Below are positions 23,650 to 63,861 of a stretch of DNA of 64,000 nucleotides, piece after piece (the first letter of the stretch is position 1; the number at the start of each line of letters is the position of its first letter). Origin of the DNA: Chloroflexota bacterium (GTDB taxonomy: Bacteria > Chloroflexota > Limnocylindria > Limnocylindrales > CSP1-4); contig VBEC01000023.1 of NCBI GenBank assembly GCA_005883615.1, positions 1-64,000 on the forward strand, in the 5' to 3' direction. Under the pieces are notes generated by a model that searched no databases, had not been told where the DNA came from, and worked only from the letters and a program-made list of their open reading frames with translations. The translations under genes were made by a program, and so were the position numbers.

Positions 23650-23693
23650 ACACACGCCACCTCAAACGAAGAAACACACGCCATCTCAAACGA
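23650..23693. repeat. 24-bp direct repeat spanning a stop codon
   Basis: Two copies of ACACACGCCAYCTCAAACGA (23650-23669 and 23674-23693; Y is C then T), period 24. The second copy overlaps the last codons and TGA of the membrane protein gene on the minus strand, so the gene's 3' end is duplicated into the spacer. It resembles the 14-bp array at 12527 in position but not in sequence. Confidence 0.9.
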
Positions 23694-24081
23694 GGAACGG
23701 CTTCAGGATCTGCACGACCAGGACGAGGGTCAGGTAGGCGATCGGCACGCCGGCCAGGAATCCGAGGGCCGCGCTCCAGGTGCTGCGCATCGGGCGATTC
23801 GAGCTGCCCGTCGGCTGTGGAACGATCACGTACGTCACCAGGCTTCCGGCCACCAGGATGCCCAGCACGAGCCCGGCGACCGCGAGCGTTCGAAGGTCAC
23901 CACCCGGCAGGCGCGCCCCACGGCTCAAAGCCACGTCGTAGGCGAGATACGCGGTGCCGAGGACGGCCGCGACCCCGGCGTCCGCCGCGACCGCGCGGAA
24001 GACCGGCCTGGGAGCATTACGGAACTGCCGCCAGCGGATCTCAGCCCAGGAGCGAGCCCGGACCGGCGGGCGCACCGTCAT
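23686..24081 (-). CDS. Small membrane protein, unknown function
   Basis: 131 aa with three predicted helices: AGVAAVLGTAYLAYDVAL (36-53), LAVAGLVLGILVAGSLVTYV (66-85) and AALGFLAGVPIAYLTLVLVV (104-123). Its N-terminus is basic (VRPPVRARSWAEIRWRQFRN). I recognise no family. The ATG overlaps the end of the class V aminotransferase gene by four bases (ATGA, 24078-24081), so the two are coupled. The stop codon lies in a duplicated 24-bp element. Confidence 0.7.
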   Translation of the reverse strand: MTVRPPVRARSWAEIRWRQFRNAPRPVFRAVAADAGVAAVLGTAYLAYDVALSRGARLPGGDLRTLAVAGLVLGILVAGSLVTYVIVPQPTGSSNRPMRSTWSAALGFLAGVPIAYLTLVLVVQILKPFLV

Positions 24082-25322
24082 CCCGCGTCGCTCGAGAGGA
24101 TCGTCAGTGTCGGCCGCCTCGGCAGCGTTGCCGGAGTGGCGTCTGCCAGCTCGGCGACAGCTTGGGCCAGTCGCTCGAGCTCCGCCTCTGTGTTGAAGAA
24201 GCCGACGCTGAGGCGGATGGCCTCCAGCTCAGGGATCGTTCGGGCGATGGCAAAAACGCGGCCGCCCAGCTCCTCGAGCGCGGTTTCCGCGGGCCAATCC
24301 GCGATCCGAAATGTCACCAGGGTGGCCATCTGGTCTGTTGGGGTCACGAGCTCGACGCCCGGGATGGCTCCTAGCAAGTCCGCTGCCCGGCGGGCAAGCG
24401 CCACGCCGCGACCGTAGACCCACTCGAGACCCACGTACATCGATAGCCAGCCGCAGCTGCGCGCCATCCCCACGACCGATGGTCGGTGGTAACCGGAGGT
24501 CTGGAACCGGCGCGCGTCGCCGAAGTGGCGACCCGTGCCATCCGAATCGACCAACTCGTAGCCGAACCAGCCCGCGAATGTCTGGCACGCGCGTTCCAGG
24601 ACGGTGGGCGCCACATACAGGGCGCCCATCCCCTCGGGTCCGAGGAGCCACTTCTGCGCGGATGCGGCGAAGAAGTCCGCGCCCAGCTCGCCGACGTCCA
24701 CCGGTATGGCACCTGCCGACTGCGCCCCGTCGAGGACCACCCAGGCGCCCCTGTCGTGGGCCATCCGGGCGATGCGAGCGACGGGCAGCACAGCTCCGGT
24801 CGACCAGCTCACGTGCGACAGCGCGACGAGCCGGGTCCCATGCACGATCGCCCGGTCGAACGCAGCCAGCGTCCGATCGTCGTCCCCGCCGGCTCCGACA
24901 TCGACCATCGCGAGCTCTACGTCGAGTCGATCGCGCAGCGTATACAGGGGCCCCAGGCCGCCAGGATGCTCGAGCCTGGTGGTGACGGCGCGATCGCCCG
25001 GCCGCCAGTCGACCGACCAGCAGGCGATGTTCATTGCCTCGGTCGCCGAGTGCGTCAACGCAATCGAATCCACGTCCGTTGACAGGATCGCGGCGATCCC
25101 CGCGCGCGCTTCGTCCATTCGCAGCAAAGCCTCGTCGAGTACGGCAGAGCTGGCCCTGCCGGTCCGCAGCTCCCACTCGGCGATCTCGTTCATCGCCTGC
25201 GCGGTCTCGCGCGGCAGTGGGCCGACCGAGCCGGTATTGAGGTAGATGCCGGCGCCCGTGGCGGGAAGGGCCTCCCGTACCGCGGCGACCTTCTCGGCGT
25301 CCGGGAGAAACGGCGAGACCAC
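24078..25322 (-). CDS. Class V aminotransferase (cysteine desulfurase/epimerase-like, PLP enzyme)
   Basis: 414-aa PLP-dependent fold type I enzyme. Residues near 16-30 read GIYLNTGSVGPLPRET, typical of the isopenicillin-N epimerase/cysteine desulfurase-like branch. LTHSATEAMNIACWSVDW positions the cofactor, and HPGGLGPLYTLRDRL, SHVSWSTGAVLPV and VVLDGAQSAGAIPVDV follow (the last with the PLP pyridine-binding Asp). The Schiff-base Lys lies in ASAQKWLLGPEG. No desulfurase Cys loop is evident near the C-terminus, so sulfur mobilisation is not assured despite the rhodanese next door. GTG 25322 follows TATCAT by six bases, suggesting a leaderless message; longer in-frame readings upstream overlap the divergent gene. 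Confidence 0.85.
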   Translation of the reverse strand: MVSPFLPDAEKVAAVREALPATGAGIYLNTGSVGPLPRETAQAMNEIAEWELRTGRASSAVLDEALLRMDEARAGIAAILSTDVDSIALTHSATEAMNIACWSVDWRPGDRAVTTRLEHPGGLGPLYTLRDRLDVELAMVDVGAGGDDDRTLAAFDRAIVHGTRLVALSHVSWSTGAVLPVARIARMAHDRGAWVVLDGAQSAGAIPVDVGELGADFFAASAQKWLLGPEGMGALYVAPTVLERACQTFAGWFGYELVDSDGTGRHFGDARRFQTSGYHRPSVVGMARSCGWLSMYVGLEWVYGRGVALARRAADLLGAIPGVELVTPTDQMATLVTFRIADWPAETALEELGGRVFAIARTIPELEAIRLSVGFFNTEAELERLAQAVAELADATPATLPRRPTLTILSSDAG

Positions 25323-25340
25323 GTTCGTATGATACCGACG
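25323..25340. promoter_or_regulatory. Overlapping divergent leaderless promoters (aminotransferase / rhodanese)
   Basis: Plus strand TATGAT (25328-25333) and minus strand TATCAT (25334-25329) overlap by five bases. TATCAT ends six bases before the aminotransferase GTG. TATGAT ends seven bases before an ATG at 25341. Only 18 bp separate the two start codons, so one site may serve RNA polymerase in both directions. Confidence 0.55.
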
Positions 25341-25379
25341 ATGCCTTGCGCCACCCTCCGTCACGGCGGCTCGCAATGA
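25341..25379 (+). CDS. Putative leaderless 12-codon upstream ORF (MPCATLRHGGSQ)
   Basis: ATG seven bases after the TATGAT hexamer opens a 12-codon frame, MPCATLRHGGSQ, whose TGA overlaps the rhodanese ATG as ATGA (25376-25379). The layout predicts a leaderless upstream peptide that is translationally coupled to the sulfurtransferase. It has a Cys codon at position 3. Cys-containing leaderless upstream frames are known to regulate sulfur genes in mycobacteria; a similar role here is speculation. Confidence 0.35.
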   Translation: MPCATLRHGGSQ

Positions 25380-58002: not shown

Positions 58003-61000
58003 ATGACTGCCCCCGTCCAGCCTTCGGAGGACCGCGCCGAGGACCTCGAGATCGAGCGCGAGCGCCAAGCGCGAGTCCAGTCGGCGCTGTATCGGATCGC
58101 CGAAACGGCGAGCGCCGCGCACGACATGGGCGAGTTCTACGCGTCGATCCACGCGATCGTCGGCGAGCTCATGTACGCCGAGAACTTCTACGTCGCGCTG
58201 TATGACGAGGACCGGCAGCGCGTGAGCTATCCCTTCCATGTCGATGAACTCGACGAGGAGTGGCCCGCTCCAAACGTGTGGGACGAGATGGGATCCGGCC
58301 AGGCGACCGGCACGACGGCCTGGCTGTTTCGGACGGGCCACCCGGCGCTCCTGGACAACGCTGCACTGCACGCTCTCATCGACAGCGGTGAGGTCGCTGT
58401 GCTGGGCGTTGAGTCGGTCGACTGGCTCGGAGTGCCACTGAAAGTTGGCGGCCGCACGATCGGCGCGGTCGTCACCCAGAGCTACAGTGAGGCACACCGC
58501 CATACTCGGCAGGATCTCGACCTGCTGACCTTCGTGGGCCAGCACATTGCGACGGCTCTCCAGCGGAGCCGTGCGATCGAGGAAACCCGACAACGAAACG
58601 CCGAGCTTGCAGTCATCAACGAGATCGGCACGGCGTTGGCCAAGCAGCTCGATTTCCACGCAATCGTGGATCTTGTGGGGGAGCGTATCCGCTCGATCTT
58701 CGAAGTCCGGACTGGCTTTATTTCGCTGTACGACGCGGCAACCTCGGTCGTGTCGTTCCCCTACTTCATCGACGAGGGCGCTCGAATCCAGCCGAAGCCT
58801 TTGGCACTCGGGCCGGGGTTGACCTCGACGGTCATCTCGACACGGCAACCGCTGCGCCTGAACACGGCCGCTGAGACGAGCGCGCATGGGGCCATCACGG
58901 TTGGGAGCGAGCTCGCCGAATCGTGGCTCGGAGTGCCGATCCTCGCCGGAGAACGCGTTCTGGGGGTGATTGGGCTCGAGCGGCTCGAGCAGTTTGGCTT
59001 CACTGAATCTGACGAGCGCCTGCTGGGCACATTGGCCTCGAGCATGGGCGTCGCCCTCGAGAACGCCCGCTTGTTCACCGAGACGAAGAACCTCCTCGCG
59101 GAGACCGAACAACGGGCCGCGGAGTTGGCCGTCATCAACGAAATCGGCGCTGCTCTTGCGAAGCAACTCGACTTCGACGCGATCATCGAGCTCGTCGGTG
59201 AACGGCTCCGGGCGATCCTTTCCGCGCAGGCGCGCCACATCTTCATCGCCCTGTATGACAGGCGATCGAATCGTCTGACCTTCCCTTATCAGGTCGAAGA
59301 CGCGAAACGGCTTCGTGAGGATGCGATCGACCTCGGGCAAGGCCTCACTTCGGTCGTGGTCCAGTTACGACGACCTTTGCGCCTGGGCACGCTGGCCGAG
59401 CAGCTCGCCCTCGGCGCTTTCGTTGCGGAAGGCGCGACTACCACCGAGTCATGGCTGGGCGTCCCGATTGAAGCGAGCAACGAGGTCATCGGCGTGATCG
59501 TGGTCGGCCACCCGGAGCCCCACGCGTATAGCGACGCCGACGAGCGATTGGTCTCGACCATCGCGTCGAGCATGGGCGTGGCCCTCGAGAACGCCCGCTT
59601 GTTCAACGAGACGAAGCGCCTCCTCGCCGAGACGGACGAGCGTGCGTCAGAGCTGGCGATCATCAACGAGATCGGTCAGGCGCTCGCGAAGCAGCTCGAT
59701 TTCGACGCGATCATCGAGCTCGTCGGAGAACGCCTGCGGGCGATGTTCGCCGAGCAGGCGCGGGACATGTTCGTTGCAACGTACGACGCGAAGACGAAGG
59801 TGATCAACTTCCCGTACTGGATCGAGAATGGCGAACGTTTCCAATCCGAGCCGATCCAGTTTGGTGAGGGCCTCACCTCGATCATCATTCGATCGAAGAG
59901 GCCGCTGCGGCTGGACACGCTCGAGGCGGCCATGAAGATGGGGGCGATCTTTCCCCAAGGGGCGAGCTTGACCGAGTCGTGGCTCGGTGTGCCGATTCCG
60001 TCCGGGAATGATGTCATCGGCGCGATCATGCTCGCCCATCCAGAGCCCGCGGCGTATAGCGAAGCCGATGAGCGGCTCGTCTCCACGCTCGCCTCGAGCA
60101 TGGGCGTTGCGCTCGAGAATGCCCGCCTGTTCGATGAGACGAAGCGCCTCCTCACCGAAACGGACGAGCGCGCCGCCGAGCTGGCGATCATCAATAGCGT
60201 CCAGGAAGGGCTGGCGGAGCGGCTCGACATGCAGGCCATGTACGACCTGGTCGGCGACAAGATTCGCGAGATTTTCGATGCCCAGGTCGTGGACATCAGC
60301 GTCTATGACCGCGAGAACGCGACCATGCGGTTTCCCTTCGCGATCGAAGACGGCATTCGCTTCGATCGTGAGCCCACCCCGCCGATGGGCGCCCGCCGCC
60401 ACGTCATCGAGAGCCGTGAGCCGCTGGTAATCAACGAGGATTTGACCAGACGCCTCCTCGAGGAGTTCGGCCAATCTGCGCGGACGTGGGGCACTCGAGA
60501 GGCGAAGTCGGCCGTGCTTGCGCCCCTTCTCGCGGGCGGCGAGGCGAAAGGCGTCATTTCAATCCAGAACCTGGACCGCGAGCTTGCCTTCAGCGAGTCG
60601 GATGTCCGATTGCTCACGACGGTCGCGGCGAGCCTGAGCGTGGCACTCGAGAACGCCCGCCTGTTCAACGAGACCACGCGCCTCCTTACCGAGACCGACG
60701 AACGGGCCGCCGAGCTGGCGATCATCAACAGCGTCCAGCAGGGGCTGGCTGAGCGGCTGGACATGCAGGCGATGTACGACCTCGTCGGGGACAAGATCCA
60801 GGAGATCTTCGATGCGCAGGTCGTCGACATCGCCGTCTACGACCCCGAGGAGGAGCGCCTGCGTTTCGCGTACACGATCGAGCGAGGCGTCCGCTTTCAC
60901 GACGAGCCAATGGCCCTGATCGGTTTCCGCCGGCATGTGGTGGAAACTCGCGAGCCCCTTCTGATCAACGAGCGGGCGATGGCCCAGGCCGAGGAATACG

Positions 61001-63861
61001 GCCAGCCGGGTGTGCTCTCAGGTGAGCCCGCCAAGGCGGTGCTCTTCGCGCCGCTCATCATCGGCGACCGAGCCAAGGGCGTGATCTCGCTCCAGAACCT
61101 CGATCGCGAGAACGCGTTCTCCGAGGCCGACGTGAAGCTCCTCACGACTCTCGCCGCGAGCCTGAGCGTAGCGCTCGAGAATGCTCGCCTGTTCGACGAG
61201 ACGCGCCGGCTGCTGGCCGAGACCGACCAGCGGGCCGCCGAGCTGGCAATCATCAACGGCGTCCAGAAGGGTCTTGCGCAGCAGCTCGACATGGAGGCGA
61301 TGTACACACTCGTCGGGGACAAGATCCGGGACATCTTTGACGCGCAGGTGGTCGACATCTCGGTCTACGACCCGGAGGCGGACGTTGTCCGTTTCCCCTA
61401 TATGATCGAGCGCGGCGTCCACGTGGCGGATCTGACGATCCCGTTGATCGGCTTTCGGCGGCATGTGTTCGAGACCGGCAAGCCGATCCTGGTTGACGAC
61501 TTCCCGCGCCAGGCGCTCGAGTACGGCAATCCGCTTGTGATCACCGGCGAGCCGCCCAAATCGGCCCTGTTCGTGCCACTCGTGGTCGCCGACAAGGTCG
61601 AAGGCATCGTCTCCCTCCAGAACCTCGATCGCCTGAGCGCATTCGGCCCGTCTGACCTCGACCTCCTGCTCACCCTCGCGGCCAGCCTGAGCGTGGCGCT
61701 CCAGAACGCCCGCCTCGTCGAGGAGACCCGGCAGCGAGCGGCAGAGCTCGCGATCGTCAACCAGGTGGGGCACGCCGTTGCCGCGCAGCTCGACCTGGAT
61801 GGCCTGATCAACCTTGTCGGCGAGCAGATGCGCGAGACGTTCGAGGCCAACATCGTGTACCTGGCGTTCCTCGACGAGGACACCGGGCATATCGAATTCC
61901 CGTACTACGTTGAGGACGGGCGCCACGAGCCTCAGCGCTCGATGCAATATGGCGAAGGGCTGACCTCGCGGATCATGGAGTCGCGGCAGCCTCTCCTGCT
62001 CAATCGCGAGGAGCATTTCCGGGATCGCGGTTCGACCGTCATCGGAACGCCGGCCCGCTCGTATCTCGGCGTACCGATCTTCGTCGGTGACAAGGCCATC
62101 GGCGTCATCAGCGTACAGAGCACGCAAGAGGAGGGCCGCTTCGGCGACTCGGATTCCCGCCTGCTCTCCACGCTGGCGGCCAATGTCGGGGCGGCGATCC
62201 AGAACGCCCGCCTGTATGCCGAGGCAAGAGAGGCCAAGAACTCGGCGGAACAGGCAAACGAGGCAAAGAGCACGTTCCTGGCGGCCATGAGCCACGAGAT
62301 CCGAACGCCGCTCAACGCCATCATCGGGATGAGCGGCCTGCTGGTCGATACCCCACTCGACGCCGAGCAGCACGATTTCGCCGATACGATCCGAACCTCC
62401 GGCGATGCGCTGCTGACGATCATCAACGACGTCCTGGACTTCTCGAAGATCGAAGCCGGTCGAGTCGAGCTGGAGGCTGCTCCGTTCGCCCTGCGCGAGA
62501 CTGTGGAAGCGGCTCTGGACATCCTGGCGCCGAGCGCCGTCGATAAGGGCATCGAGCTTCTGTACTCGATCGATGACGATGTGCCGAATACCCTGGTCGG
62601 CGACGCGGGGCGCCTGCGGCAGGTGGTCCTCAACCTGCTTTCGAATGCGGTCAAGTTCACCGAGCAGGGCGAGGTCGTGTTGAGCGTCAGCGGTCGGGCG
62701 CTCCCGGCAACCGGCCGAGGTTCGGCCGGTCCTCGCTGGGAGGTCCGAGTCGACGTGCGGGACACCGGGATCGGCATTCCGCCGGACGCGATGGGCCGGC
62801 TGTTCCAGTCGTTCAGCCAGGTCGACGTCTCGATTTCCCGACGCTACGGCGGCACGGGCCTGGGTCTCGCCATCAGCCGCCGGTTGGCGGAATTGATGGA
62901 AGGCTCCCTCGAGGCGGAGAGCAGCGGACAGCCGGGCGAAGGTAGCTCGTTCCATTTCGTGTTCCAGGCGCCGGCTTCCGCCGAACAGGCGCGTACGCAC
63001 GCACCGCACTCTGAGGTCGATCTGGACGGCCGCACGGTCCTCATCGTCGACGACAACGCCACCAATCGGCGCATCCTCGTTGCCCAGACCAGCCGATGGG
63101 GCATGGTGCCCAAGCAGACCGGCTCTCCGACCGAGGCATTGGCCTGGGTCAAGGCCGGCGAACGGTTCGACATCGCGCTCGTGGACCTGATGATGCCGGA
63201 GCTGGATGGAATCGAGCTGGCTGCCCGGATCGCCAAGGGGCGACGGCGGCCGCCCATCCCCGTGATCATCCTGTCCTCGGTCGGCCAGCGAGACCGCGAA
63301 GGCGCGAAGGTCTCGGCCTGGCTCGCCAAGCCGGTCAAGCCGTCCGCGCTGCACGACGCGCTCGCGACTGTCCTCTTCGGCCGGGCGGTCCTGACTCCTG
63401 TGCGGCAGATCGAACGGCCCGGCGGGCCGCCCGATGCAACCCTGGGTGCGAGCCACCCTCTTCGGATCCTGCTCGCAGAGGACAACGCGGTGAACCAGAA
63501 GCTCGCGCTGCGCCTGCTTGCCCAGCTCGGCTATGGAGCGGATCTCGCGGGCGATGGCCTCCAGGCGATCGAGGCGCTCGAGCGTGAGGAGTACGACGTC
63601 GTGCTCATGGACGTGCAGATGCCCGAGCTGGATGGTCTCGCGGCGACCCGCCAAATTCGCGCCCGCTGGCCCGATAGGTCGACGACGATCGTGGCCATGA
63701 CCGCAAACGCCATGGCCGGCGACCGCGAGGCATGTCTGGCCGCCGGTATGGACGACTATGTCAGCAAGCCCATTCGACCAAAGGAGCTGGCGGCTGCCCT
63801 TGCGCGAGTCCCGCCGTCCGAGGCCGCGCGTTCGCGCATCCGGGCCGCGATCGATGCCTGA
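58003..63861 (+). CDS. Hybrid sensor histidine kinase with eight GAF domains and two receiver domains
   Basis: 1952-aa cytoplasmic kinase with no membrane helix. Eight tandem GAF domains start near residues 20, 200, 372, 548, 725, 904, 1080 and 1247. They are joined by near-identical signalling helices such as [20 protein letters not shown]. GAFs 2-4 and 5-7 form two more similar groups, pointing to internal duplication. HisKA has phospho-acceptor H1431 ([12 protein letters not shown]). HATPase_c has the N box [21 protein letters not shown] near 1587 and [13 protein letters not shown]1 (D1728, [10 protein letters not shown]) and REC2 (D1870, [11 protein letters not shown]) follow. CATACT ends six bases before the ATG. 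The stop overlaps an Hpt gene by eight bases, completing a phosphorelay. Confidence 0.93.

Follow-up and report, generated by a model that had tools for sequence, protein, structure and literature searches.

Divergent junction of the rhodanese and aminotransferase-like genes

The window analysed here (i.e., the whole stretch of 64,000 nucleotides, taken from a 3.06-Mb MAG) carries a divergent gene pair, in which a two-domain rhodanese on the plus strand faces a class-V aminotransferase-fold protein on the minus strand (Table 1). The rhodanese scores 142 bits against NCBIfam PRK11493, under the cut-off of 250, and the minus-strand protein shows only sub-threshold similarity to cysteine desulfurases. 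Both gene starts (25376 on the plus strand and 25322 on the minus strand) were picked by a home-made gene caller based on codon usage, a model that is blind to promoters. Further along the minus strand, a predicted 131-aa hydrophobic protein (23686-24081) has a 4-nt overlap with the upstream aminotransferase-like gene, giving the divergent unit a further stop/start overlap. Near the end of the window, the plus strand holds a very long predicted gene of about 1,950 codons (58003-63861).

Table 1 Features at the divergent junction and the basis of each assignment.
Feature	Position	Strand	Basis
Plus -10 box TATGAT	25328..25333	+	Sequence; present in 82/84 orthologous junctions; spacing equals the genome-wide leaderless peak
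Divergent -10 box TATCAT	25329..25334	-	Sequence; five bases in common with the plus box
Predicted leaderless uORF of 12 codons, MPCATLRHGGSQ, stop TGA	25341..25379	+	Sequence; out-of-frame start at equal spacing in 20 loci including this one, all ending in NTGA
ATGA stop/start overlap, uORF to rhodanese	25376..25379	+	Sequence; ATGA, GTGA or TTGA in 20/20 uORF loci
Rhodanese, two-domain, 3-mercaptopyruvate-sulfurtransferase-like, 280 aa	25376..26218	+	Pfam Rhodanese, E 2.3e-34
Class-V aminotransferase-fold protein, predicted leaderless, start GTG 25322-25320	24078..25322	-	Pfam Aminotran_5, E 2.6e-48

The two genes are separated by the near-symmetrical heptamer TATGATA (25328-25334), whose two strands, read directly, give TATGAT (plus) and TATCAT (minus). 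The plus ATG (25341-25343) lies 7 nt from the plus box and opens a short frame whose TGA (25377-25379) overlaps the rhodanese ATG (25376-25378), and the minus GTG (25322-25320) lies 6 nt from the minus box. On re-reading, we found the original prediction exact in its anatomy, that is, overlapping divergent -10 boxes with five common bases, a GTG at 6 and an ATG at 7 nt, and a 12-codon plus frame from 25341 whose TGA overlaps the rhodanese start. In both directions the box-to-start spacing is typical of leaderless genes, and the divergent start codons predict transcript starts 19 bp apart. A TTGACA-like -35 element was searched for at the plus promoter and none was found.

Bidirectional promoters with symmetrical -10 elements have divergent TSSs 7-25 bp apart, with 18 bp being typical (Warman, Grainger and colleagues; PMC12825309, PMC10268837). 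TATGATA likewise combines overlapping, near-symmetrical -10 elements with predicted starts at 19 bp, suggesting that RNA polymerase may use it in both directions as a bidirectional promoter with a shared -10. The junction differs from those promoters (PMC12825309, PMC10268837) in that both products here are predicted leaderless mRNAs of protein genes, so that the promoter would be nearly the whole intergenic region. No second double-leaderless promoter between divergent genes was found in 740 kb of the host genome or in 400 kb of a relative (G006).

Leaderless-like starts in the host genome

We sampled the same 740 kb and 400 kb for start signals genome-wide. In the host sample, the motif TANNNT is most frequent at 6-7 nt ahead of gene starts, where 23 and 37 of 647 genes have it (versus 1-6 per spacing for permuted motifs), an enrichment that is repeated in G006. 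A stricter count in the host classed 53 of 639 genes as leaderless-like and 131 as having a strong Shine-Dalgarno sequence (SD), with one gene in both groups. Leaderless-like and strong-SD starts are nearly mutually exclusive, coinciding in 1/53 of the leaderless-like starts in the host sample and 2/38 in the G006 sample, suggesting that both initiation routes are widely used in the Limnocylindrales family.

The genome-wide excess of NTGA-type uORFs was small and not clearly above controls in the 740 kb of the host, and none was clear in the 400 kb of G006. Two further uORF candidates in the host, named from sequence reading, were set aside: a glycosylase-like gene (L160), which has too few orthologues, and an LLM-oxidoreductase-like gene (L180), which is mostly SD-led or unclear in relatives and hence not conserved.

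Three predicted start modes behind one promoter box

To place the junction in its family, which belongs to Ca. Limnocylindrales (Chloroflexota), we compared it across 84 genomes, classified by script; these are MAGs that are related by kinship and thus not independent. One member of the same genus (G001) contributes no junction because its contig begins inside the rhodanese. The -10 box was matched near the start in 82 of the 84 orthologues, counting one atypical match (L059). The seventh A (25334), which is used by the minus box alone and was not part of the search pattern, is kept in 79 of 81 relatives (a count that omits L059). On the other strand, 80 of 82 loci offer an open start codon for the minus gene at 6-10 nt from its box.

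Behind this box, the rhodanese starts fall into three modes, namely direct leaderless (37 genomes), leaderless uORF (20) and SD-led (27). In the direct mode, the rhodanese start lies 6-8 nt past the box (slightly further in L019), and three loci (L007, L035 and L058) carry an in-frame N-terminal extension. In the uORF mode, an out-of-frame ATG or GTG 6-7 nt past the box opens a short ORF that ends in NTGA at the rhodanese-frame start; one locus (L016) was assigned here by hand, as its first NTGA leads into a second, 5-codon frame. SD-led loci have longer leaders, each bearing a strong SD, and all but a few lack a start codon where a leaderless one would sit. The median SD hybridisation energies were -2.35, -2.4 and -10.0 kcal/mol for the uORF, direct and SD-led loci, respectively, and an energy of -6 kcal/mol was reached by 0/20 uORF loci versus 27/27 SD-led loci, where the SD is the best among possible in-frame starts, a choice that somewhat favours the SD-led group. 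One point against the coupling reading comes from L002, where weakly purine-rich bases ahead of the rhodanese ATG give -5.0 kcal/mol.

The original prediction had looked to relatives for conservation of the frame, and this expectation holds in part. Many relatives are without the uORF, and those without it have either a rhodanese start at the leaderless position or an SD, a pattern suggesting that the uORF serves as a ribosome entry device.

Probable coupling of the uORF to the rhodanese start

The strongest regularity among the uORF loci is the way in which the frame ends. NTGA closes the uORF in 20/20 of these relatives, versus 6/48 pseudo-uORFs in SD-led relatives (i.e., frames from a start imagined at the same place in their leaders) and 3.6% of random leaders. 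Since the uORF loci come from seven genera, even one count per genus (7/7) is very unlikely by chance. The uORF leaders range from 17 to 41 nt and are all 2 mod 3 in length, and the second rhodanese codon begins with the A that NTGA demands in 20/20 uORF loci versus 7/37 direct loci.

These numbers bear on the idea that the uORF is a bystander and that the rhodanese starts independently, either from an in-frame TTG (25346) or through ribosomes that bind directly at its ATG (25376). The TTG is indeed open and in frame, and a weak purine-rich stretch precedes 25376. However, the TTG lies 12 nt past the box, where the genome-wide start spacing has no peak, and an NTGA ending in 20/20 loci is not expected of a bystander frame. 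Moreover, no in-frame start is available between the box and the NTGA in several uORF relatives, L004, L010, L011 and L031 among them. We rejected TTG 25346 as the rhodanese start, given that it has no spacing peak and is not common to relatives, and we regard the bystander reading as a whole as improbable. It is even harder to see the promoter-like and frame-like strings as chance occurrences without function: every element is short, but the box, the spacing and the NTGA are conserved family-wide, and we consider this explanation highly unlikely.

Peptide content and the question of cysteine sensing

The original prediction also proposed that the uORF tunes sulfurtransferase synthesis and may sense Cys-tRNA. 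Such an attenuator would alter rhodanese transcription or translation when the uORF's Cys codon is decoded slowly. Codon 3 of the host uORF is its single Cys, a gene of sulfur transfer follows, and there is a precedent in mycobacteria, where cysA2 is preceded by a leaderless uORF with a Cys cluster and a conserved sequence (PMC4633059). Both cases share a leaderless uORF (predicted here) 5' of a sulfurtransferase gene, although the mycobacterial uORFs conserve their sequence and the Cys cluster (PMC4633059), whereas here there is one unconserved Cys. Only 3 of the 20 uORFs contain Cys (3 per 184 codons, where about 5 are expected from base composition, and thus no excess), each at a different position, so that a conserved Cys-codon cluster is missing both at this locus and among the 20 uORFs. 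We looked in the leader for a terminator-like hairpin and found none, and for an Rfam element, without a match; a leader structure or terminator acting as the switch is accordingly absent, although this feature is not defining in all descriptions of cysteine attenuators.

The peptide itself turns over freely. The uORFs range from 6 to 14 codons and vary by whole codons, and 3/3 changed uORF codons between the sister species at L042/L047 and 7/8 between those at L039/L045 are nonsynonymous. Based on the Cys counts, the lack of a terminator or RNA family, and this turnover, we rejected Cys-tRNA attenuation, which we hold to be very unlikely. One half of the proposed tuning is well supported, namely the coupling (leaderless entry and stop/start overlap, across 84 junctions), and the other half, Cys-tRNA sensing, is not, given the 3 Cys in 184 codons and a peptide that is not kept. 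The least probable reading of all is that the 12 residues function as a small protein in their own right, as the frame is kept in 20 relatives but its sequence and length vary even between the sister species above. Because the arrangement is kept in relatives but the peptide is not, the uORF most likely acts as a translation coupler rather than as a cysteine sensor. As a warning, cysteine sensing cannot be concluded from a lone Cys codon in a uORF, even close to a sulfur gene.

Proposed mechanism and known systems

Overall, the junction is best explained by a bidirectional promoter followed by a uORF that is leaderless and translationally coupled, a reading in which we have good confidence. 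The plus transcript would begin at about 25341, such that its first codon is AUG, and this 5'-terminal AUG would bind a 70S ribosome. The ribosome would then read 12 codons, whose amino-acid content would be irrelevant, terminate at the UGA, and reinitiate at the overlapping rhodanese AUG, which is without a strong SD. In this way the uORF would stand in for an SD. We infer the transcript 5' ends, the translation of the uORF, and reinitiation with its efficiency from sequence features, and the same applies to the argument that the promoter is pinned. According to this argument, the opposite leaderless gene would pin the promoter, so that the plus transcript start could not move; with that start fixed, a displaced rhodanese start would have to be made good by an SD, by extending the N-terminus in frame, or by a frame ending exactly in NTGA.

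Two steps of this route have been documented elsewhere. 5'-terminal AUGs with an effect on a downstream gene are bound by 70S ribosomes (PMC4965119), and termination-reinitiation at stop/start overlaps is possible without an SD (PMC6728339). As in the E. coli 5'-terminal uAUGs (PMC4965119), which bind 70S and can affect the downstream gene, a 5'-terminal AUG would open a uORF here, but the main gene in E. coli has its own SD, whereas no strong one is present at this locus. Similarly, ATGA/TGATG overlap reinitiation (PMC6728339) shares the stop/start overlap and a dispensable SD, with the difference that a full gene takes the upstream position there, and a 12-codon frame predicted to be leaderless does so here.

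The closest parallel is found in mycobacteria, where Shell et al. (2015) described leaderless small ORFs that are coupled through RTGA and encode unconserved peptides (PMC4633059). Our locus resembles these in its predicted leaderless start, its short frame, its RTGA overlap and a linkage that is kept without conservation of the peptide (PMC4633059). Both the RTGA overlap and the retention of the linkage while the peptide is not retained were found here, and judging from these testable features the Chloroflexota locus would belong with the coupled leaderless small ORFs of Shell et al. It differs from them (PMC4633059) in its phylum, in its predicted shared bidirectional promoter, and in that orthologues swap the uORF for direct leaderless or SD-led starts. 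A limited literature search turned up no account of a whole family that exchanges direct leaderless, uORF-coupled and SD-led starts behind a fixed bidirectional promoter.

Switching between start modes

On a quick maximum-likelihood rhodanese tree (83 rows, with many weak inner branches), at least 12 mode changes are required, and the starred branches alone force at least three changes for the uORF label. Switching is visible even within a single genus (g14), which contains 11 uORF loci, two direct loci (L009, and L058 with its in-frame extension) and one SD-led locus (L057). Compared with its neighbour L012, L009 is missing a 17-nt uORF segment and has a direct leaderless start. The sequence anatomy, its conservation, the exclusivity of the modes and their recurrent switching are shown by the sequences.

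Two uORF loci carry tandem repeats of the rhodanese start. At L004 (G012), the 6-codon uORF (MNAFAP) repeats 17 nt of that start imperfectly and in tandem (14/17), which appears to be a visible birth route for such a uORF. At L016 (G032), 14 bp of the rhodanese start are duplicated exactly and in tandem, which places GTGACGGGGTTCCC twice between the -10 box and the rhodanese and yields a chain of two NTGA-coupled short frames, of which the sister locus L017 (G006) has one. Whenever 3n+2 bases are duplicated at a start codon followed by A, an NTGA uORF arises automatically. We looked for a copy signature in the remaining uORF leaders and found none, and duplication is accordingly one route only.

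Here, we extend the leaderless, stop/start-coupled uORF of mycobacteria, as a predicted arrangement, to Chloroflexota. The 84 orthologous starts form a natural series, in which mostly one promoter feeds three alternative initiation modes, so that a small set of reporters could test how genes pass from leaderless to Shine-Dalgarno initiation or back. We slightly favour a broader view, in which a leaderless, throw-away NTGA uORF at a doubly pinned promoter would be a heritable and interchangeable SD substitute, and lineages would switch among direct, uORF-coupled and SD-led starts, partly via small duplications and deletions of 3n+2 bases. If this view is true, such duplications and deletions at the start codon would represent a concrete route between leaderless and leadered genes.
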